A stretch of 64,000 bases of DNA from Myxococcota bacterium (lineage in GTDB: Bacteria > Myxococcota_A > Polyangia > Polyangiales > Polyangiaceae), in assembly GCA_963169915.1 (NCBI GenBank), contig CAUJEM010000067.1, positions 1 to 64,000 on the forward strand, in the 5' to 3' direction. Both the position numbers and the translations under genes were made by a program. The notes below the pieces were generated by a model, which was not told where the DNA came from, searched no databases, and saw nothing but the letters and a program-made list of their open reading frames with translations. Shown piece by piece: positions 3,285 to 41,034 of the stretch. The stretch's first letter is position 1; each line of letters opens with the position of its first letter.

Positions 3285-5570
3285 ATGAGAACCGTACGCC
3301 TCGTCTCTTTCGCCAGCTCGCTCATCGCCACGCTCTCCGCCTCCGTGAGCGCCTTTGCTCAGTCCGCCCCCCCCGCGGAGGCCCCCAGCGCAGCGCCCGC
3401 TGAAGCCCCCGCTCCCACCCCCGCCGAGCCGGCCGCCGCCAGCGCGTCCGGTGGCTTCTCCCTCGGCACGGACGGCGCGAGCGCGTCCGGCAGCGCGGAC
3501 GTGGACGCCACCCCGGCCGCGGAGCGGACCCCCACCGAAGAGCTCGAGTGGCGCCGCCTCTCACTGCGTGAGCACAACTCGCTCAGCGGCGCGGTCGGTC
3601 TGCTGCACACCCGCAGCGCCCTCAGCGGCGCCCCCGGCACCTTCCGGCTGAGCTTCATCGGGAGCGGCTACGCGGGCACGGGCTTCCTCTGCAACTCCGA
3701 CACCCCCTGCCCCAACCCGAGCGGCGGCAAGGCCGCGGAGGACGACATCAGCCGCATCGGCGCGGGGCTCACCCTCTCCGTGACGGTGGCGCCGTTCTTG
3801 GAGGCCTACGCCGGGCTACACTCCACCGCCACCAGCAGCGATCAGAACCGCCCCGGCCTGCTGCAGGTGCTCGGGGACACCAACATCGGCGTCAAGGCCT
3901 TCACCCCGGCCCGCCCGGACTCCATCTTCGCCTTCGGTGGCTCCGCGGAGCTGTGGTTGCTCAACGGCGCAGGCGACATCGGCTTGAACGGCGATGGGAC
4001 GAGCGGCTCCTTCCGCCTGCTGGGCACGGCAGATTTCACGCATCGTCAAGATCCGAGCGCTCGGCTCCCGCTGCGTCTGCACCTCAACCTCGGCTACGAC
4101 CTCGACAACTCCGGGCAGGTCGTCCTCCCCACCGAGAAGTCGCGAGGAATGCGCGTCACACGGACGGAGCGGCTCGGGATGAACGTCAACCGCGTGGACG
4201 CCTTCACGGCCGGCGTCGGCGTGGAGGGGGTGTTCGAGGTGGCGCGGCCCTTCGTGGAGTGGACCATCGACGTCCCGGTCAACCGCCAGGACTACACCTG
4301 CTACAAGTCCCGCACCTACAGCGGGGACGGCTGCCTCGGCGACGACGCAGGCTTCAGCACGACGCCCTCGCGCGTCACCCTGGGCGTGCGCGCCACCCCC
4401 TTCTTCGACGGGCTGGGGCTGCTGGCCGCCTTCGACATCGGCACAGGGGCGACCTCCAGCTTCATCGAGGAGGTCTCCCCGCAGACGCCCTGGACGCTCT
4501 ACCTCGGCGCCAGTTACGCCTTCGACACTCAGAGGCCGCAGACCGTGGTGGAGCGGGTCGAGGTGGAGAAGCCCACGCCCCAGCCCGTCGCCCCGCCGGA
4601 GCGCTTCATCAGCGGCACCGTGACGGAGAAGGGCACGGGCGCGGCCGTCCCCAACGCCATCGTACGCTACGCGGGCCGTACGCTCACCGGCATGGTGGCG
4701 GACGAAGCCGGGAAGTTCACGACGGGCAACCTGGATCCGGGCAGCTACACCTTCTCCATCACCGCGGACGGCTACCGCCCCGGAGAGTGCTCGGCCACGG
4801 TCAGCGAGGCCGCGCCAGCGGGTAGCGGCGCGCCCCAGGCGGCCCCCGGAGCGCCCAGCGCGCCCGCGCAGCCGGCGGACGTGCCCTCCCAGGGCGGGAT
4901 CACCATGGTCAACGTGCAGTGCGAGCTCGAGGCGCTGCCGAAGGTCGGCAACGTCGTGGGTCAGCTCGTGGACTCCGCGAGCGGCGCGCCCATCGCTGGC
5001 GCGAAGGTGACCATCACGGACAAACTGGGGCGCCAGCTCAGCCTGGAGTCCGACGCCGCGGGGAGCTTCCGCTTCGAGAACGTGGTCCCTGGCACCGCGA
5101 AGGTCACGGTGGAGCTCGAGGGCTACTTCACCAGCGTGAACGAGTACGACATCCGCCCCCGGGAAGACGCGCGCGCTACCATCGGGCTCAACAAGCGCCC
5201 GAAGGTGGCCAACGTGGTCGTCACGGCCAATGAGCTGAAGCTCAAGCAGCAGGTCCATTTCCAGACCGGCTCGGCGGTCATCCTGCCGGACTCGCAGGCC
5301 ATCATCGAAGAGCTGGCGGAGGTGCTCCGGAGCAAGCCGGAGATGCGCTTGGAGATCCAGGGGCACACGGACAACACCGGCACCGCGGCCTTCAACCAGC
5401 GCCTCAGCCAAGAGCGCGCGGAGGCCGTCCGCGCGGCCCTGGTCGGGGCCGGCATCGCGGCAGACCGGCTGGACGCGAAGGGCTACGGGCAGGACAAGCC
5501 GCTCGCTCCCAACACGAGCGAGGCCAACCGCGCCAAGAACCGGCGCGTGGCCCTCATCGTCCAGAAGTAA
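3285..5570 (+). CDS. OmpA-family outer membrane protein with carboxypeptidase-regulatory-like domains
   Basis: The 761-residue protein starts at ATG 3285, seven bases after an AAAGGGG ribosome site (the open frame extends upstream but lacks coding character). A signal peptide ends near AFA-Q (residue 25), followed by a Pro/Ala-rich stretch to about 60. Residues ~80-430 are rich in alternating-polarity segments, suggesting a beta-barrel or similar fold. Two carboxypeptidase-regulatory-like beta-sandwiches follow (~440-515 and ~555-630). The C-terminal ~105 residues are a classic OmpA peptidoglycan-binding domain with IQGHTDNTG and NRRVALIV. It probably links the outer membrane to peptidoglycan. 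The combination of barrel-like part, two sandwiches and OmpA is characteristic of myxobacterial envelopes. Confidence 0.88.
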   Translation: MRTVRLVSFASSLIATLSASVSAFAQSAPPAEAPSAAPAEAPAPTPAEPAAASASGGFSLGTDGASASGSADVDATPAAERTPTEELEWRRLSLREHNSLSGAVGLLHTRSALSGAPGTFRLSFIGSGYAGTGFLCNSDTPCPNPSGGKAAEDDISRIGAGLTLSVTVAPFLEAYAGLHSTATSSDQNRPGLLQVLGDTNIGVKAFTPARPDSIFAFGGSAELWLLNGAGDIGLNGDGTSGSFRLLGTADFTHRQDPSARLPLRLHLNLGYDLDNSGQVVLPTEKSRGMRVTRTERLGMNVNRVDAFTAGVGVEGVFEVARPFVEWTIDVPVNRQDYTCYKSRTYSGDGCLGDDAGFSTTPSRVTLGVRATPFFDGLGLLAAFDIGTGATSSFIEEVSPQTPWTLYLGASYAFDTQRPQTVVERVEVEKPTPQPVAPPERFISGTVTEKGTGAAVPNAIVRYAGRTLTGMVADEAGKFTTGNLDPGSYTFSITADGYRPGECSATVSEAAPAGSGAPQAAPGAPSAPAQPADVPSQGGITMVNVQCELEALPKVGNVVGQLVDSASGAPIAGAKVTITDKLGRQLSLESDAAGSFRFENVVPGTAKVTVELEGYFTSVNEYDIRPREDARATIGLNKRPKVANVVVTANELKLKQQVHFQTGSAVILPDSQAIIEELAEVLRSKPEMRLEIQGHTDNTGTAAFNQRLSQERAEAVRAALVGAGIAADRLDAKGYGQDKPLAPNTSEANRAKNRRVALIVQK

Positions 5571-5597
5571 CACCCCACCCTAGCCACGTTGTTGGCC

Positions 5598-5637
5598 GAC
5601 GAGAGGCCCCTCGCCACGCGCGAGCGGGCCTCTCGTC
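5598..5637. terminator. Hairpin between ompA-like gene and rbfA
   Basis: A perfect 12-bp stem GACGAGAGGCCC (5598-5609) with GGGCCTCTCGTC (5626-5637), with an inner CTCG/CGAG pairing. It lies between two convergent genes, so it may end transcripts from both sides. Neither side has a clear T-run. Confidence 0.6.
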
Positions 5638-5691
5638 CATTACGGGGCCGAGGAGCTTCGTGGCACCACCACGGCCCGCCGGGCCGCGCGC

Positions 5692-6069
5692 TCACTCCGT
5701 GCTGCCGCGTGGCTCGCTGGCGATCTCGCGCAGGAGCTGCTCCACGCGCTCCGCGGCGTCGTGGCCCGTGTCATAGAAGAAGCGCAGCTCCGGCACCCGG
5801 CGCAGGCCCAGGTGCGCGCCGAGGCCGCGCCGGAGCCGAGGCGAGACCTGCTCGAAGCGCTTGACGAGCGCCGCGCGCGCCAGCGGGTCGCTCTCCATCG
5901 CCAGGTGCCGCACCCCCACCTTGGCGAGGCCGAGGTCTCCCGACACCTCCACGCTGGTCAGCACGCTGAGCGCCAGCACCGGATCCCCCAGCTTGGACTG
6001 GACTTGCCCCGCTAGATACGAGCGGACCGCGTCCGCGACGCGGCGGGGACGTCGGCCGTCAGCTGCCAT
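5692..6069 (-). CDS. rbfA: Ribosome-binding factor A
   Basis: RbfA binds the immature 30S subunit and helps 16S rRNA 5'-end maturation. The 125-residue product has the family's basic N-terminus (RRPRRVADAVRSYL), a central KH-like fold with the conserved LSVLTSVEVSGDLGLAKV region, and a C-terminal RVPELRFFYDTGHDAAERV helix segment. Length is normal. It is the last gene of the rimP-nusA-ylxR-infB-rbfA operon and starts 32 bases after the infB stop. Confidence 0.95.
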   Translation of the reverse strand: MAADGRRPRRVADAVRSYLAGQVQSKLGDPVLALSVLTSVEVSGDLGLAKVGVRHLAMESDPLARAALVKRFEQVSPRLRRGLGAHLGLRRVPELRFFYDTGHDAAERVEQLLREIASEPRGSTE

Positions 6070-6101
6070 GGAGCATGCCCACGCTGCGGTAAGCGCGACG
6101 C

Positions 6102-8798
6102 TCAGAGCGTCTGCTTGACCTGCTCCAGCTCGAAGGCCTCGAAGACGTCGCCCTCGGCGTAGTCCGAGTACGCGTCGAGCGCGATGCCGCAGTCGAAGCC
6201 CTCCTTGACCTCTTTCACGTCCTCCTTGAAGCGCTTCAGGCTGGAGATCTTCCCCTCGTGGACGACCTCACCGGCCCGCAGGACACGGACGCTGGCGTTC
6301 CGCTTGACGAGCCCCTCGATGATCATGCAGCCCGCCACGGGCCCTGCCTTGCTGAGCTTGAAGACCGCGCGCACCTCGGCCCTGCCGAGCTTCTTCTCCA
6401 CGAAGGTGGGGGCAAGCTTGCCCTCCATGGCCGCCTTCACCTCATCCACCACGTTGTAGATGATGGAGTACTGACGGATCTCCACGCGCTCTTGCTGGGC
6501 GAGCTGGGCCGCCTTGCCCGCCGGGCGCACGTTGAAGCCGATGATGATGGCCCCCGCCGCCACGGCGAGGTTGACGTCTCCCTCCGTGATGGCGCCGACC
6601 CCCGCCTGCACCACGCTGACCTTGACCTTCGCGGTGGACAGGCGTGTGAGCGCCTCACTGACGGCCTCGACCGAGCCCTGCACGTCCGCCTTGATGATGA
6701 GCTTCAGCTCCACCTGCTCGCTGGTGGCCATGGCCGCCTGCAGCTCTTCGATGGTCATGCGCGGGCCCTTGGAGGGCATCAGGCTGTGACGCTCCTTGAC
6801 CTTGCGGCTCTCGGCCAGCTCTTGCGCCTTCTTCAGGTCTTTGACCACCAGCACGATGTCCCCAGCGCTGGGCACGTCCGACAAGCCGATGATGCTCACC
6901 GGGGTGCTGGGCTTTGCAGACGCGACGTTGCGGCCACGGTCGTCGAGCATGGCGCGCACCTTGCCGTAGGCGGGGCCGACCAGCAGGATGTCACCGCGGT
7001 TGAGCGTGCCGTCTTGCACCAAGACGGTAGCGACGGGACCCTTGCCGCGGTCGAGCTCGGCCTCCACCACCACGGCGGTGGCCGGCTTGTTCGGGTTGGC
7101 CTTCAGCTCGAGCACCTCGCTCTGGAGCGCGACCAGCTCCAGCAGCTCGTCCACCCCCGCGCCGGTGAGCGCGCTCACCTCCGCAAACTGCGCGTCACCG
7201 CCCCAGCTCTCCGGCACCAGGCCGACCTCGCTGAGCTCCCGCCGAACCCGATCCGGTTGGGCGTCGGGTTTGTCGCACTTGTTGATGGCGACCACGATGG
7301 GTACCTTCGCCGCCTTGGCGTGCGCGACGGCCTCTCGCGTCTGCGGCATGACGCCGTCGTCCGCGGCCACCACCAAGATGACGACGTCCGTGGTCTGGGC
7401 GCCGCGCATCCGCATGGCCGTGAAGGCCTCGTGGCCAGGCGTGTCGAGGAAGGTGACCCGCCCCTTGGCGGTCTCCACCGAGTACGCGCCGATGTGCTGG
7501 GTGATGCCGCCCGCCTCGCCCTGCGCGACGTTGGCCTTGCGGATGCGGTCGAGCAGGCTGGTCTTGCCGTGGTCCACGTGACCCATGACGGTGACGACCG
7601 GCGGCCGCAGCTCGCGCTCTTCGTCCTCTACCCCCGCCTCGAGCCCTTGCGCCGCCAGCAGCTGCTCTTCTTCGCTGACCGCGACGTCCTCGACCTCCCA
7701 GCCGAATTCGCTGGCGACGATCTTGCTGGTGTCGCTGTCCAAGGTGCTGTTGATGTTGACGCCCGTCATGCCGAGGCGCATGAGCTTCATGAGCAGCTCG
7801 GTAGCCTTGACACCCATCCGTGCAGCGAGCTGCTGGAGACCGATGGTGTCTTCGATTTTGACGATCTTCTTCTGAGCCGAGCGCTCTTGCGTCCCCGGGA
7901 AGTGGCTCTTGCTCTTGGCGGGCCCCGCCCCCACGCCGCGCCCACGAGCGCCGCCCACGCCTCCTCGGTTGGGCCCCATCCGATTGCCCGGCCCCATGGC
8001 GCGACGAACGCCGCCAGGGCCGCTGCCCATGGCCCCCGGGCCCTTGGCGTCGAACTGCACGCGGCGGGGTACGGGGCCTCGCTGCACCTGCGGCATGGGC
8101 ACGCCAGGGCGGCCCTCCCACACGTCGATGCCCGTCTTGGGCGCGGAGCTGGGCCGCGCCGGTGGCGCGGCCGGTGCGGCGGCGGCCGGCGACTCCACGA
8201 TGACGGGCTCCGGCAGCGGCGCCGCCACTGGGACGACCGGCGAGGCGGCGGGCGGCGACTCCACCACCGGCGGCGGCTCCGCCGCCTTCGGGCTCGACCG
8301 CGCCGGCTCCGGGGCGACCTCCACGACCGCCGGCGGCTCCGCCGCCTTCGGGCTCGACCGCACGGGCTCCGGGGCAGCCTCCAGGGCCAGCGGCGGCTCC
8401 GCCGCCTTCGGGCTCGACCGCACCGCCTCCGGGGCGGCCTCCACGACCGCCGGCGGCTCCGCCGCCTTCGGGCTCGACCGCACCGGCTCCGGCGGAGGCG
8501 CCGCAGGCGTGACGGGCGGGGGCGGCGGCTCGACCGCAGCGCGGGGGCTCGACGCCTCCGGCTTCGGCGCGCTGGGCGCGCCACGGCGCTTGACGACACC
8601 CGCCCTGAGCTGCTGCTCCACGGGCTTCTGGGCTCCCCCCTTGTCCAGCTGGCGCTTGACCCGGTCGATGTGCTCCGACGAGACGACGCTCATGTGATTT
8701 TTCACGTCTGCGACGCCGATCGACTGGAACAAGGCGACGAGCGCCTTGTTGTCCATGCCAAGCTCCTTGGCCACTTCATAAACACGCAGCTTGCTCAT
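6102..8798 (-). CDS. infB: Translation initiation factor IF-2
   Basis: IF-2 is the GTPase that delivers initiator tRNA and joins the ribosomal subunits. The 898-residue protein has the IF-2 N-terminal helical module ([20 protein letters not shown], residues 5-24), a long Pro/Ala/Val-rich insert (~65-290), a second N-terminal module near 315-370, and then the G domain. G motifs are GHVDHGK (~403), DTPGHEAF (~450) and NKCD (~509). Domains II-IV follow to the C-terminus. The insert includes a 20-residue unit repeated about four times, encoded by 60-bp DNA repeats. Start ATG 8798 overlaps the upstream stop as ATGA and is preceded by GAGGA, indicating translational coupling. Confidence 0.97.
8261..8490 (-). 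repeat. 60-bp tandem repeat inside infB
   Basis: Nearly four copies of a 60-bp unit start at about 8271, 8331, 8391 and 8451. All share the core GCCGCCTTCGGGCTCGACCG on the plus strand. They encode repeats containing [10 protein letters not shown] in the low-complexity linker of IF-2. Copies differ by a few bases, so the array is not perfectly homogenised. Confidence 0.9.
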
Positions 8799-35082: not shown

Positions 35083-36147
35083 ATGAGCGACAAGACCGAA
35101 GCGGCCACGCCCCGGCGCCTGCGCCGCGCGCGGGAGCAAGGCGACACGCCCGCCTCACAGGCGCTCACTCGCGCCGTGGGCTTCGTGGCGGCGCTGACGG
35201 TGGTGCCCGCGGCGCTCGGCGCCCTCGTCACGACGAGCGCGGCCCGCCTCGTCGCGGTGCTCGAGCTGCGCGCCGGCGCGGCATCCCCCTGGGAGCTCAC
35301 GCGTGACGTGCTCGTGCTCAGCCTGCCGCTGCTCGGCGTGGTGAGCCTGGCCAGCCTGGCCGCCGGCGTGGTCCAGAGCGGCGGCGTGGTCAGCTTCAAG
35401 AAGCTTGCTCCGGACCTCCAGCGGCTCAACGTCGTGTCCGGCCTGCGGCAGCTCTGGTCTACGCAACGCGCCTCCGCGGTGCTGCGGGCGCTCATCACGG
35501 CGAGCGTCGTGGCCTGGGCCGCCTTCGACCTCGTCCGAGCTCAGGCTCCGTCGCTGGTCAGCAGCCCTGGAGCGTGGGACGGCGCGTGGACGGTAGCCGC
35601 CCACACCTCGCGGCGGCTCGGCTGGACGACGGCGCTGGTCGGGCTGGCGCTCGGCTTCGTCGATCTCGGGCTGAGCCTTCGCGCCTGGCTCGAGCGCAAC
35701 AAAATGACGAAGGACGAGGTCAAGCGGGAGCACAAGGAGTCCGAAGGGGACCCCGAGCTGCGCAGCGCCCGGCAGCGCGCTCACCAAGAAGTGCTGGCCA
35801 GCGCGAGCATCGCCAAGGTCCGCGAAGCCACGGTCCTCATCGTGAACCCCACCCACCTCTGCACCGCCCTACGGTATGACGCCGGCGACGAGGCGAGCGC
35901 GCCGCGCGTGCTCGCCCACGGTGAAGGGGAGCTGGCGCGCCGTATGTTGGAGGCCGCCCACCACTGGAACGTGCCGGTCGTGCGCGACGTGCCGCTCGCC
36001 CGCGCCTTGCAAGAGCTCCAGCTCGACGAGGAGATCCCCGAGGCGCTCTACGAAGCCGTGGCTGCCGTGCTGCGCGAGCTGTGGGAGGCCGAGCAGCCCG
36101 CGGCCGAGCAGCCCGCGGCCGAGCCGCGCGGCGGCGACCACGGCTAG
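35083..36147 (+). CDS. FlhB/YscU-family type III export switch protein
   Basis: The 354-residue protein starts SDKTEAATPRRLRRAREQGD, the diagnostic N-terminus of FlhB/YscU/SctU. Four hydrophobic segments follow, then a charged cytoplasmic linker (NKMTKDEVKREHKESEGDPE) and the autocleavage motif NPTH at 255-258 in VLIVNPTHLCTALRYD. The C-terminal domain includes VPVVRDVPLARAL. The tail is Glu/Ala/Pro-rich. All hallmarks of a functional export switch are present, yet no other type III export gene lies in the window. Neighbours are an M48 lipoprotein upstream and a convergent unrelated gene. Confidence 0.93.
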   Translation: MSDKTEAATPRRLRRAREQGDTPASQALTRAVGFVAALTVVPAALGALVTTSAARLVAVLELRAGAASPWELTRDVLVLSLPLLGVVSLASLAAGVVQSGGVVSFKKLAPDLQRLNVVSGLRQLWSTQRASAVLRALITASVVAWAAFDLVRAQAPSLVSSPGAWDGAWTVAAHTSRRLGWTTALVGLALGFVDLGLSLRAWLERNKMTKDEVKREHKESEGDPELRSARQRAHQEVLASASIAKVREATVLIVNPTHLCTALRYDAGDEASAPRVLAHGEGELARRMLEAAHHWNVPVVRDVPLARALQELQLDEEIPEALYEAVAAVLRELWEAEQPAAEQPAAEPRGGDHG

Positions 36148-36152
36148 CCCTC

Positions 36153-36175
36153 GAGCGCGCGCCGACGGCGCGCTC
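36153..36175. terminator. Hairpin between convergent flhB-like and pseudo-cyclase genes
   Basis: GAGCGCGC (36153-36160) pairs with GCGCGCTC (36168-36175) around a 7-base loop. It overlaps the stop codon of the minus-strand gene and follows the flhB-like stop by five bases. No T-run on either side. Confidence 0.45.
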
Positions 36176-38321
36176 AGCCTGCTTCGGGGGGCAAGGCGCC
36201 GCGCCAGCGCTGCGCTTCGGCGCTGGCGCCGGTGGCGTCGCAGAGCTGCGTGAGAAACAGCAGGCACGCCCGCTCACCACGCGCATCGCTGGCCTCTCTC
36301 GCGCGCGCCAGGCCCTCGAGGGCCTCGAGCAGAGCGTCTGCGCTCCGGCCCGCTGCGCTGAGCCCCACCGCCAGAGCGAGCGCCGCGCGGCTCTGCTCGC
36401 GCGCGTCTTTGTCTCGCGCCTGCTCCCGTCCGCTCCTGAGCAATTGGAGCGCCGCGGACGTCTCCCCCTTCTCCAGCGCGTCGATGGCGCGCACGCGCTC
36501 GGTCGCCGCGGGCGTCACGCGCTCGGCCGCCGCCGTGGGCGCCGAGCGCACCGACGGCGGCGCGCTGCCTCGGGCGGCCGGCGAGTGGCTCTCCGCGCGG
36601 CGCGCGGGCGCGAGCCAGGAGGCGCCGTCTTGCACGTAGCCCGCCGCCAGGCCGCGGTGCGCGAGCGCCACCGTGCCCTGCGTCTGCGCCGCCTCGAAGG
36701 CCTCCGCGCTCTCACCGAGCCCCGCCGTGATGGTGGCGCCGGCCGCTCGCCGCGCCAGCAGGCGCGCCTGCTCCACGTCCGCCGCCAAGCTCGCGTGCAG
36801 CGCGGCCACGCCCGCGTCCAGCGGGCGCTCGGTCTGCGCGTGGGCCAGCGCCACGCGGTGGTGCCAGCGCTGGCGCTGCTCAGGGGTGAGCGCCGAGAGC
36901 AGCGCGCGCTGTAGGGTGCGGCTCGTGAGGCTCGCGCCGCGCGTGAGCCAGCCCTGCGCGGCGAGCCGCGTCAGCGCTGGCTCCACGTCTTCCGTCGGCG
37001 CCACCACCCGCAGCAGATCCGCCTCGTCCGCGTCACCTCCGAGCAGCGCGAGCGCCTCGAGCAGCTCCCGCTCGAGCGGCGTGAGCAGCGACCGCCGTGA
37101 GCGCGCAAGCCCGATGCCCCCGCCCTGGAGCCAGGACGCCGTGCGTGAGCGGAGGATGATCTTGTCTCCCTCCCAGATGAGCACGCCGCGCTCGAGCCCG
37201 AGCGAGAGCGCCTGCCAGAGCGTCTGCGGCAGGCCGTCCAGCACCCGCGCGCCGCGGCTGGCCACGCGGCCCTCGAGCGCGCCGCCCGTCATGGAGAGCG
37301 CGAAGCCGACGCTGGTCGCCTCGTCGAATGGCGCCAGCGTGGTCTCGGCCGCCAGCGCGAGGCGCTGGAGCGGCACCGGCGGCGCCCCACTGCCTCCCAG
37401 CCGCGCCACCACGCCGAGCTCCCCCTGCTCCGCCGCGAGCGCCAGCACCTCGAGCGAGTCGTGCTCGACGAGCGCCGCGTCATCGATGAGCACGAGGCCG
37501 ACCCCTGCGCCGACCGAGCGCGTGACGAGCTCCGCGAGCTCCGCCACGTCCCCACCTTGACCATCGAGGAGCGCCTCGAGCGCCGCGGCTTCGAGCTCGC
37601 TCAACTCCACGCGAGCGGCCTGCCGCGCTCGGCGCAGCGCACGCCGCAGGGCGCCGAGCGGCTCTCCCACGGGGCCGGGCTGCACCCACAGGCTGGCCGG
37701 CGCGGCGCGGTGGAGCTCCTGCAGCGCGCGCGTCCCGCCGGCACCGCGCGCGCCGCGCACCAGCGTGAGCCGCCCGGGCTCCACGGCGAGCTGCGCCAGT
37801 CGCTCGGCCCCGAGGTACGCCGGCGCTCGCAGCCGCGCCACGGCGCGCGCCACCGGGCGGCGCAGCGGCCAGCGCAGGTCGAGCCGCGCGCCCCGGAGCC
37901 GCACGGCGCCACGCTGCCCCCGCTGCGTGCCGCGCGTGAGCAGCTCGGCGCGCGCCAGCGCCCCGACCGACGCGTCGACGAGCACCTCGGAGCCCTGCAG
38001 CAGGCGGGTGAGCCGCGCGGCGCTCGCCAGCGCGGGACCCTCGACCACGGCGGCGCCCGCGCCCCAGCCCACCACCACCGTGAGCTCTCCCTCGGCCAGC
38101 GTGGCGCCCCAGCCCTCCGGCAGGGCTCCCTCCTGGAGCATCAGCTCCACCGCGTCTTCCAGCGCCTCCGGCTCGAAATCGAAGGCCGCGGACTCCGCCT
38201 GCCACGCGCAGAGCCGCCCGCCGAGCACCTGCGCCCGCGCGAGCAGCGCCCCCAGCCGCTCCTGCAGCCGTTGCCGCTCTTGATCGCGCCAGCGAAAGCA
38301 GACGACGAGCCGCCGCGCCAC
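36174..38321 (-). CDS. Degenerate cyclase/STAND-ATPase-like regulator linked to PspA
   Basis: The 715-residue soluble protein starts LVVCFRWRD. Residues ~60-150 (LTVVVGWGAGAAVVEGPALA, then SAARLTRLLQGSEVLVDASV) mirror the second half of class III nucleotide cyclases (GxVVG..VNxAARL..GEVLVS), but metal-binding Asp residues are not evident. Residues ~170-380 look like an AAA/STAND module in which Walker A is VRGARGAGGT without the Lys; a VLIDDAALVEHD Walker-B-like segment remains. A winged-helix-like part (TPLERELLEALALLGGDADE) and TPR-like helices complete it. Similar layouts occur in cyclase-ATPase-TPR regulators. It starts five bases after the pspA stop. Probably a non-catalytic sensor or scaffold; this is inference. 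Confidence 0.55.
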   Translation of the reverse strand: MARRLVVCFRWRDQERQRLQERLGALLARAQVLGGRLCAWQAESAAFDFEPEALEDAVELMLQEGALPEGWGATLAEGELTVVVGWGAGAAVVEGPALASAARLTRLLQGSEVLVDASVGALARAELLTRGTQRGQRGAVRLRGARLDLRWPLRRPVARAVARLRAPAYLGAERLAQLAVEPGRLTLVRGARGAGGTRALQELHRAAPASLWVQPGPVGEPLGALRRALRRARQAARVELSELEAAALEALLDGQGGDVAELAELVTRSVGAGVGLVLIDDAALVEHDSLEVLALAAEQGELGVVARLGGSGAPPVPLQRLALAAETTLAPFDEATSVGFALSMTGGALEGRVASRGARVLDGLPQTLWQALSLGLERGVLIWEGDKIILRSRTASWLQGGGIGLARSRRSLLTPLERELLEALALLGGDADEADLLRVVAPTEDVEPALTRLAAQGWLTRGASLTSRTLQRALLSALTPEQRQRWHHRVALAHAQTERPLDAGVAALHASLAADVEQARLLARRAAGATITAGLGESAEAFEAAQTQGTVALAHRGLAAGYVQDGASWLAPARRAESHSPAARGSAPPSVRSAPTAAAERVTPAATERVRAIDALEKGETSAALQLLRSGREQARDKDAREQSRAALALAVGLSAAGRSADALLEALEGLARAREASDARGERACLLFLTQLCDATGASAEAQRWRGALPPEAG

Positions 38322-38326
38322 GCGCC

Positions 38327-39061
38327 TCAGTCTCCGATACGGACGCGTCGCTTGAGCGCCGCCAGCTCTTCTTCCACCTCGGCGCCGCGGCCGCTGCCCG
38401 CGCCCGGCGGCGCTCCGCCCTCCAGCGCACGAAACTTCGCCTCGACCTCTTCTCGGGTGAGCCCTCCGGGCCCCCGCCCGAGCCCGAGCGCCTCATCCAC
38501 CTCTCGCTGCGCCGCCACCGCGGCGTCCACTCCCTCGATCTGGTCTTCCATCCGGCGAAACTCCGCGAAGGCAGCGCCGCCGGGCTTGGCGCCTAGCCCC
38601 TCCACGCCCGCCTGCCCGACCTTGGCCTGCTCCGCCGCGCGCACCAGGCTGCTCTTGCGCGCCGCCAGCTCCGACAGCTTGGCCTCCATCCGCTCGAGCT
38701 CCCGCTTCATCTCCAGGGCGTGCCCGCGCTGCTCGGCGCGGAGCGCTTCGGCGCGATCTTGCTCCCCAGTGATGCGCTTCTTCTGCAGCAGCGCCTCCCG
38801 CGCCAGCTCGTCGTCGCCGTGCTTGACGGCCAGCTCGGCGCGCTGGGCCCAGCGCGTGTGCTCCTGCCCGAGCTGCTCCAGCTTGCTCTTGAGCTGCTTC
38901 TCTGCCGCGACGGCTCGCACCACCTCCTCTCGTGCGCGGCGGATCTGCTCCCGCATCTCGGTGAGGGTCAGCTCGATGGACTTGCTTGGGTCCTCCGCCT
39001 TGTCGATCAGCGCGTTGAAATTGCTGCTGATGACGCGTCCCATCCTGTCGAACAGTCCCAT
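38327..39061 (-). CDS. pspA: PspA/IM30-family membrane-stress protein
   Basis: The 244-residue, almost wholly coiled-coil protein starts GLFDRMGRVISSNFNALIDK, the classic PspA/IM30 N-terminus, followed by AEDPSKSIELTLTEMREQI. These ESCRT-III-like proteins bind stressed inner membrane. Start ATG 39061 is the family start; the frame is open further upstream to 39160. The C-terminus has a short acidic helix after a Gly/Pro-rich hinge. It is the first gene of a two-gene unit with the large degenerate cyclase-like protein, an unusual partner in place of PspF, PspB or PspC. Confidence 0.93.
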   Translation of the reverse strand: MGLFDRMGRVISSNFNALIDKAEDPSKSIELTLTEMREQIRRAREEVVRAVAAEKQLKSKLEQLGQEHTRWAQRAELAVKHGDDELAREALLQKKRITGEQDRAEALRAEQRGHALEMKRELERMEAKLSELAARKSSLVRAAEQAKVGQAGVEGLGAKPGGAAFAEFRRMEDQIEGVDAAVAAQREVDEALGLGRGPGGLTREEVEAKFRALEGGAPPGAGSGRGAEVEEELAALKRRVRIGD

Positions 39062-39255: not shown

Positions 39256-41034
39256 ATGAAGCTCGATCGCGCGTTGGGTGGGGTGGTGGCCTGGATCCTG
39301 CTGGTGTCGCTCGCGGGCTGCGGGAGCGGCGAGGAAGAGGGCGCGGGCGGCAGCGGCGCCACCGCGGGCACCAGCGGCGCGGGCGGCAGCGGCGCCGCCG
39401 CGGGCACCAGCGGCGCGGGCGGCAGCGGAGGCGCGGGCGGCAGCGGCGGCGCGGGCGGCAGCGGAGGCGCAGGCGGCAGTGCGGGCGCGGGCGGCAGCGG
39501 CGGCGGGAGCGCAGGCGTGGGCGGCAGCGGCGGCGGGAGCGCAGGCGCGGGCGGCAGCGGTAGGGCTTGCGTCAGCCGCGCGGCGGAGCCCACGCCGCTC
39601 CAGCGCGGGACGGGGCGACGGTTTCACGTCAGCGCGAGCGCCACGCCGGGCGGCGCGGGCACGGAGGCGAGCCCATGGACCCTGAGCTACGCGCTGTCCG
39701 CGGCGAGCGGCGTCGAGCCGGGAGACGAGGTACTCCTGCACGCCGGCGTCTATCGTGGCAACTTCGATAGCCGCATCCAGGGGCGAGAGGACGCGCCCAT
39801 CGTGGTGAGGCCCTTCGGAGCCGACGAGGTCATCCTGGATGGCAACCGGGGTGTGACGGACGTCGCCGCGCTCGCCGTCAACGGAGGGCACGTGACCTTC
39901 GCCAACCTGCACGTCACCAACTCCAACACGCAGCGCACCTCCACCGTCGACTCCCACGGTCCCCCGGACATCATCCGCAACGACGGCGTCGACGTGTACG
40001 CCCCAGGCGTGCGCTGCATCAACCTGGTGGTGCACGACAACCTGGGGATTGGCATCGGGATGTGGCGCTCGGCGGTGAACTCCGAGGTGTACGGCAGCAT
40101 CATTTACAACAACGGCTGGAGCGGCCCCAGTCAAGGGCAGGGACACAACATGTACCTGCAGAACGCGACCGGCACCCAGGTCATCGCGGACAACGTGATC
40201 TTCAACGCCGCGCGGGACGGGGCGCAGGCGTATACGGAGGGGGGCGCCATCCAGGGCTTCACCTTCGAGGGCAACCTCTTCTTCAACAACGGCGTGCTCG
40301 GCTACCACCAGCTGGACCGCAACCTGCTCATCGGCGGATTCCAGCCCGCAGGGCGCATCACCGTCCGGGGCAATCACCTCTACCATGGATCGAGGTCACC
40401 CGGCTTCAGCTCGAAGGCCAACGTCCAGCTCGGCTATGGCGTCGCGAACGACGACGCCCTGCTCGAGGGCAACTCCATCGTCGGTGGCAATCCCCCCTTC
40501 TACGAAATCCGTGGCTGGTCCGAGCTGACCCTCCGCAGCAACACGGTCATCGGTTTCTCTGCCAGCTCCGACGTCGTGAACGCCTTCCTCGGGGGCGGTA
40601 CCTCGGGCTTCACCTGGCAGGACAACGACTACTGGCAGGGCCTGTTCAACGGCGACACCTTCTCCGCTTGGCAGACGAGCACCGGTCTCGACGGAACGAG
40701 CCGCTACCACGCCGGGCTCCCCACCCAGAACGAGATCGTCGTGCGCCCCAACCGGTACGCCGCGGGGCGAGGTCACGTCGTCGTCTACAACTGGGAGGGA
40801 CGGCAGAGCGTGGACGTCGATCTCTCGACCGTCCTCGCCTGCCAAAGCCGCTACGCGGTGTACGATCTCCAAGACCTCGAGGGCACCCCGGTAGCAGAGG
40901 GCGTGTGGACCGGCGGCCTCGTGACGCTCCCCATGAACCTGACGGCAGTCACGCAACCCAAGGGCACCTTCCCCACGGTGGTGCCGCACACCGCGCTCGA
41001 ATTCGGCACCTTCCTCGTCGTCGCCAGGCCCTGA
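39256..41034 (+). CDS. Right-handed beta-helix lipoprotein with Gly-rich stalk
   Basis: The 592-residue protein has a lipobox (VSLAGC, Cys22), then an 80-residue stalk almost wholly Gly, Ser and Ala (25-102). The folded part begins RFHVSASATPGGAGTEASPW, the typical start of a parallel beta-helix of the pectate-lyase/DUF1565 type. Helix-like rungs follow with many Asn (VTFANLHVTNSN, EVYGSIIYNNGW, FTFEGNLFFNN). A C-terminal beta-sandwich-like region ends it. These proteins often bind or cleave polysaccharides. No catalytic residues can be assigned with confidence. Expected on the outer membrane surface. Confidence 0.82.
   Translation: MKLDRALGGVVAWILLVSLAGCGSGEEEGAGGSGATAGTSGAGGSGAAAGTSGAGGSGGAGGSGGAGGSGGAGGSAGAGGSGGGSAGVGGSGGGSAGAGGSGRACVSRAAEPTPLQRGTGRRFHVSASATPGGAGTEASPWTLSYALSAASGVEPGDEVLLHAGVYRGNFDSRIQGREDAPIVVRPFGADEVILDGNRGVTDVAALAVNGGHVTFANLHVTNSNTQRTSTVDSHGPPDIIRNDGVDVYAPGVRCINLVVHDNLGIGIGMWRSAVNSEVYGSIIYNNGWSGPSQGQGHNMYLQNATGTQVIADNVIFNAARDGAQAYTEGGAIQGFTFEGNLFFNNGVLGYHQLDRNLLIGGFQPAGRITVRGNHLYHGSRSPGFSSKANVQLGYGVANDDALLEGNSIVGGNPPFYEIRGWSELTLRSNTVIGFSASSDVVNAFLGGGTSGFTWQDNDYWQGLFNGDTFSAWQTSTGLDGTSRYHAGLPTQNEIVVRPNRYAAGRGHVVVYNWEGRQSVDVDLSTVLACQSRYAVYDLQDLEGTPVAEGVWTGGLVTLPMNLTAVTQPKGTFPTVVPHTALEFGTFLVVARP
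39340..39560 (+). repeat. GC-only repeat encoding the Gly/Ser/Ala stalk
   Basis: GGCGGCAGCGG(C/A)GGCGCG-type units, about 9-24 bp in period, are repeated imperfectly and code for AGGSG-like peptides in the lipoprotein stalk. It is almost devoid of A and T and is likely to vary in length between strains. Confidence 0.85.

Follow-up and report, generated by a model that had tools for sequence, protein, structure and literature searches.

The question raised by this locus is what a large protein of enzyme-like parts does when it is encoded directly behind a pspA gene, and whether it acts on PspA. In the window (the whole 64,000-nucleotide stretch of DNA that was analysed), the two genes are:

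38327..39061, minus strand: pspA paralogue 2 (product PspA-2), 244 amino acids, ESCRT-III superfamily PspA/IM30, PF04012
36174..38321, minus strand: partner gene linked to pspA-2, 715 amino acids, GTG start

PspA-2 was assigned to PspA/IM30 on the basis of the Pfam profile PspA_IM30, which covers most of the protein (residues 2–193) with an E-value of 1.6e-32 and 113.3 bits (cut-off 33.9). Five bases separate the stop codon of pspA-2 from the start codon of the partner; this spacing and the coordinates had been given exactly in the sequence-only reading of the locus. The pair is flanked downstream by a convergent gene for a FlhB/YscU-type export protein (35083–36147) and upstream by a divergent gene (39256–41034), so the operon apparently consists of pspA-2 and the partner only. 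The product of the divergent gene (plus strand, 592 amino acids) has a signal-like start followed by a long low-complexity stretch of Gly, Ala and Ser; it had no Pfam match and by eye resembles a secreted parallel beta-helix lipoprotein. That the partner is a chance open reading frame or a frame artefact is ruled out by its conservation across the order.

Domains and fold of the partner

The domain content of the partner was assessed with three different methods: (i) Pfam and NCBIfam profiles; (ii) a sequence-based search of the PDB; and (iii) AlphaFold2 modelling followed by Foldseek comparison with the PDB. The 715-residue protein by itself gave no significant Pfam or NCBIfam match, and the sequence-based PDB search returned chance-like matches only. 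When Pfam was run on the family, AAA_16 was detected in 10 of 25 members (best E-value 3e-5) and TPR_12 in 6 of 25. The AlphaFold2 model, built from a 33-sequence alignment, had a mean pLDDT of 89.7. With the whole model, the top Foldseek match was the STAND-TPR structure 6mfv (E 2.7e-11, 584-column alignment), and the class III cyclase domains 1ybt, 1ybu and Cya2 were among the top matches. The following features were delineated:

37866..38321, minus strand: N-terminal class III cyclase-like domain (residues 1-152), catalytic residues absent
37287..37796, minus strand: STAND-like P-loop ATPase core (residues 176-345), degenerate, matched by 6mfv and by AAA_16 in family members
37731..37754, minus strand: Walker A position GARGAGGT (residues 190-197), Gly in place of Lys
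37479..37493, minus strand: Walker B-like VLIDD (residues 277-281)
36882..37118, minus strand: lid and winged-helix-like region (residues 402-480), helix/strand pattern of the model, the 6mfv alignment being long enough to span it
36513..36629, minus strand: disordered linker (residues 565-603), pLDDT below 50 at 572-601, length highly variable among relatives
36198..36512, minus strand: C-terminal six-helix TPR-like domain (residues 604-708), helices of the model, TPR_12 in family members

The N-terminal domain modelled alone reached a pLDDT of 92.9 and a pTM of 0.89. All 50 of the 50 Foldseek matches listed for it were class III cyclases, the best being 1ybu (E 1.4e-7, TM 0.63–0.66), and in a profile-profile alignment it was in register with 31 genuine class III cyclases of the same order (P 6.6e-5, probability 64%). 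By the Foldseek comparison, this domain has the fold of the class III catalytic domain, and the arrangement that follows it, with lid and winged helix and then superstructure repeats, is that of the AAA_16-like STAND ATPases. The cyclase-like half, STAND-like ATPase, winged-helix-like part and TPR helices proposed earlier were all backed by the model and its structural matches; the outcome that would have spoken against them, a structure with neither a cyclase nor a STAND fold, did not materialise. The TPR domain is the best-conserved part of the protein, with a mean pairwise identity of 43.6% versus 34–39% elsewhere. A scan of the partner for a strongly hydrophobic stretch of 19 residues found none.

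Distribution, active-site residues and short forms

Homologues of the partner were found by protein search in 34 of 59 relatives, and in a profile search of 77 genomes of the Polyangiales, most families of the order yielded a full-length homologue; the genome-contig scan used a six-sequence alignment of the partner as its profile. The named members come from Polyangium, Sorangium, Labilithrix and Minicystis, and many others from metagenome bins. In a sample of the class, full-length matches were confined to the same order, and outside the Polyangiales the profile matched only through its STAND region, in large separate proteins. PADLOC gave no match for the partner, and a role in anti-phage defence was dropped.

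The Lys of the Walker A motif (GK[ST]) was present in none of the 64 long family members, which by this residue fall outside the STAND ATPases whose fold they have. The most common form among them is GxGG[TS]R, and outside the Polyangiaceae the P-loop is frequently unrecognisable. The first Asp of Walker B is retained in most members, the second is often eroded outside the Polyangiaceae. GK[ST] is retained in other types of STAND protein from this class (three checked), so the loss of the Lys looks specific to the partner family. In the cyclase-like domain, no conserved Asp was found across the family in the metal-binding columns (beta1, beta2-beta3); the first metal Asp, in beta1, falls outside the profile alignment from which the columns were assigned. 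The column of the transition-state Asn holds V, D, L or A, and the Arg column is retained in 7 rows. The family thus does not have the set of two metal Asp and transition-state Asn and Arg that defines the class III cyclase site. Judged from these residues, both enzyme sites are dead throughout the family, which extends to the family what had been read from a single protein, namely a pseudo-cyclase without evident metal residues and a Walker A, GARGAGGT, without Lys.

Six pspA-linked members of 324–390 amino acids consist of the N-terminal domain and the TPR only, and one member of 554 amino acids likewise has no STAND part. Minicystis rosea (L063) is among the sources of the short form. The PspA-2 tree calls for three or more origins of this form, the minimum required by its strongly supported branches, and four origins are more probable. 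As the N-terminal domain and the TPR remain after the STAND part is lost, the cyclase-like fold and the TPR are probably the functional core, with the STAND part as an expendable addition.

A protein of this composition could be a ligand sensor, in which the pseudo-cyclase or pseudo-STAND pocket would bind a nucleotide or small molecule without turnover and the STAND and TPR parts would relay the signal, switching PspA-2 on or off. Class III cyclases and STAND proteins are ligand-responsive folds, the N-terminal domain is well conserved (Arg10 is shared by 53 of some 70 rows), and the first Asp of Walker B often persists. However, the residues for metal binding and the transition state are absent, as is the P-loop Lys, several lineages have no recognisable P-loop, and the short forms dispense with the STAND part altogether; we regard a sensor as possible but doubtful. 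Another conceivable role is that of a transcription regulator, in which the winged-helix-like part would contact DNA to control the operon and PspA-2 would act as anti-activator, as PspA does for PspF. Some bacterial cyclase and STAND proteins do bear DNA-binding domains, and a winged helix-turn-helix-like region is present in the model. Yet this region is embedded in the STAND module, like its counterparts in other STAND proteins, and is not a terminal effector; it is missing from short forms that are still linked to pspA-2; and no conserved sigma-54-like promoter site was found upstream of pspA-2. Direct control of transcription is, in our estimate, very improbable.

Linkage of the partner to pspA-2

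Genomes of the Polyangiales often hold two groups of PspA, which are cleanly split by profile score: PspA-2 scored E-values below 1e-58, and PspA-1 mostly 1e-45 to 1e-52 (about 1e-49 in the source genome). When gene positions were compared, the partner was the next gene downstream on the same strand in 43 of the 55 genomes of the order that bear PspA-2; an unlinked arrangement in relatives, which would have argued against the pairing, was thus not what we found. At the named loci that could be assessed, pspA-2 lies directly upstream of the partner in 23 of 30. The gap between the two genes has a median of 8 bp, and six pairs overlap (n=25, Polyangiaceae and near relatives), which is consistent with co-transcription and translational coupling. 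Both genes are kept in 44 of the 55 PspA-2 genomes. Co-occurrence is positive but moderate (44/11/10/12 for both genes, PspA-2 only, partner only and neither; Fisher p 0.005, kinship ignored).

Outside the Polyangiaceae, a divergent gene for an NAD-dependent epimerase lies upstream of the pair in conserved synteny (L152, 6017–8090; L079, L080 and L081), and in L152 a gene with a weak TPR match follows the epimerase gene. In six Polyangiaceae loci (L082, L088, L089, L090, L091 and L093), the next gene, which begins only a few bases after PspA-1, by eye resembles one for a P-type cation-transporting ATPase, and the two may be co-transcribed.

The dependence between PspA-2 and the partner is not strict. 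The two genes are far apart in Polyangium and Sorangium, and in G015, G020 and G033 they are not adjacent, with PspA-2 located elsewhere in the same genome. Nine genomes of the order, from three genera, contain the partner but neither type of PspA (G040, G049, G080, G100; G051, G062, G074; G091, G093); in G040 nothing lies between the divergent epimerase gene and the partner. Its persistence in these lineages makes it probable that the partner serves one or more further clients. Conversely, about eleven genomes have kept PspA-2 and gave no partner, some of the assemblies being broken at this place (e.g. G084). The C-terminal tail of PspA-2 looked no different whether or not a genome has the partner; no partner-binding signature was seen in it, and the tail was dropped as a binding motif.

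In two Polyangium loci (L039 and L048, about 5112–8454) the partner gene directly follows the gene for the lipid-transport permease MlaE (Pfam-confirmed in L039). These exceptions lend something to the idea that the partner is a general scaffold with a job of its own and that its adjacency to pspA-2 reflects shared expression and no contact: it is retained where PspA is missing, and it is separated from pspA-2 in Polyangium and Sorangium, in the former after mlaE. Against this stand the tight adjacency across many families of the order and the joint retention of the two genes, and we think such a scaffold unlikely.

A proposed two-gene module and its possible mode of action

Linkage, coupling, the loss of catalytic residues and the conserved TPR together led us to a reading in which pspA-2 and the partner form a two-gene envelope-maintenance module of the Polyangiales, with the partner as a soluble non-catalytic adaptor and putative direct binder of PspA-2; we put the chances of this at about even. 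The position after mlaE in Polyangium counts for the adaptor, mlaE being another envelope gene. Operon order by itself is no proof of binding. From its fold, the partner would descend from a signalling protein of the cyclase/STAND-ATPase/TPR type, in which the residues for cyclase and ATPase chemistry were lost family-wide, leaving what may now be a soluble non-catalytic adaptor. Most likely, the adaptor would bind PspA-2 directly in the cytosol and either hold it as a small oligomer or tie it to other envelope proteins. Such action would be comparable to the contact of PspA with PspF in Escherichia coli, except that no ATP would be involved.

A further tentative proposal, which we consider rather unlikely, is that the partner regulates an ESCRT-III-type filament independently of nucleotides; what was once a cyclase/STAND signalling protein, now a fossil, would then serve as the assembly-disassembly partner of PspA, in the role of Vps4 or PspF and without an ATPase.

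Comparison with known Psp systems

Proteins that combine a class III cyclase with STAND and TPR parts include those resembling soluble adenylyl cyclase; mycobacterial cyclase-ATPase-HTH proteins are related cases. The partner shares their folds and has a similar domain order, but it has lost both catalytic sets, has a single cyclase-like domain and is operonic with pspA. PspF of E. coli, like the partner, has an ATPase fold, is cytosolic (as predicted for the partner) and is encoded near pspA. The partner, however, is a degenerate STAND protein with TPR and no terminal DNA-binding domain, whereas PspF is active, an AAA+ enhancer-binding protein for sigma-54 that carries an HTH. The statement that PspF, PspB and PspC are unlike the second gene was borne out, and the PspC domain (PF04024) had no match in the source genome, the assembly of which is 90.7% complete.

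Among the PspA partners described in the PSP survey of Ravi et al. 2024 (PMC11237479) are AAA+ ATPases, CesT/Tir, Band-7, PspAA and Toastrack. In the PspA-AAA+ associations reported there, pspA lies beside a gene with a P-loop ATPase fold, as it does here. One AAA+ type next to pspA has an inactive N-terminal copy (PMC11237479); in that case only the N-terminal of two AAA+ copies is described as inactive, whereas here a single STAND-like domain is degenerate family-wide and shares its chain with a cyclase-like domain and TPR. The CesT/Tir-PspA dyad of the same survey is likewise a two-gene PspA module, with an unrelated partner fold and another PspA paralogue. This known dyad is found in the source genome at PspA-1 (L001, contig C75, 1339–2154 and 2165–2899, minus strand), where a CesT_Tir_1 gene (E 4.8e-19) precedes PspA-1. 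The main text of PMC11237479 does not contain the word 'cyclase' and describes no TPR protein like the partner alongside PspA; the pair is likewise absent from the main text of the 2022 PSP survey (PMC9239133). Relative to these main texts, the pair adds a new partner family to the known PspA dyads. The sequence-only reading had proposed that a non-catalytic sensor controlling or recruited by PspA would be a new envelope-stress module. This reading is supported in part, for the pseudoenzyme, winged-helix-like and TPR parts, the conserved linkage to pspA and the absence from both main texts; the sensor role, the action on or recruitment by PspA and the link to envelope stress are hypothetical, and the genomes with one of the two genes only, or with the two far apart, count against an obligate partnership.

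Implications

PspA is a bacterial relative of ESCRT-III. It is unusual for one protein to unite pseudoenzymes of both the class III cyclase and the STAND ATPase type, and several lineages have dropped the STAND part entirely. Ravi et al. 2024 (PMC11237479) state that the way in which assembly is regulated is unknown for those PspA homologues that have no AAA ATPase associated with them. An order-wide PspA dyad, with a partner made of two disabled enzymes, offers a concrete case for the regulation of ATPase-less PspA. A nucleotide-independent regulator, if true, would bear on the control of PspA proteins that have no ATPase partner.
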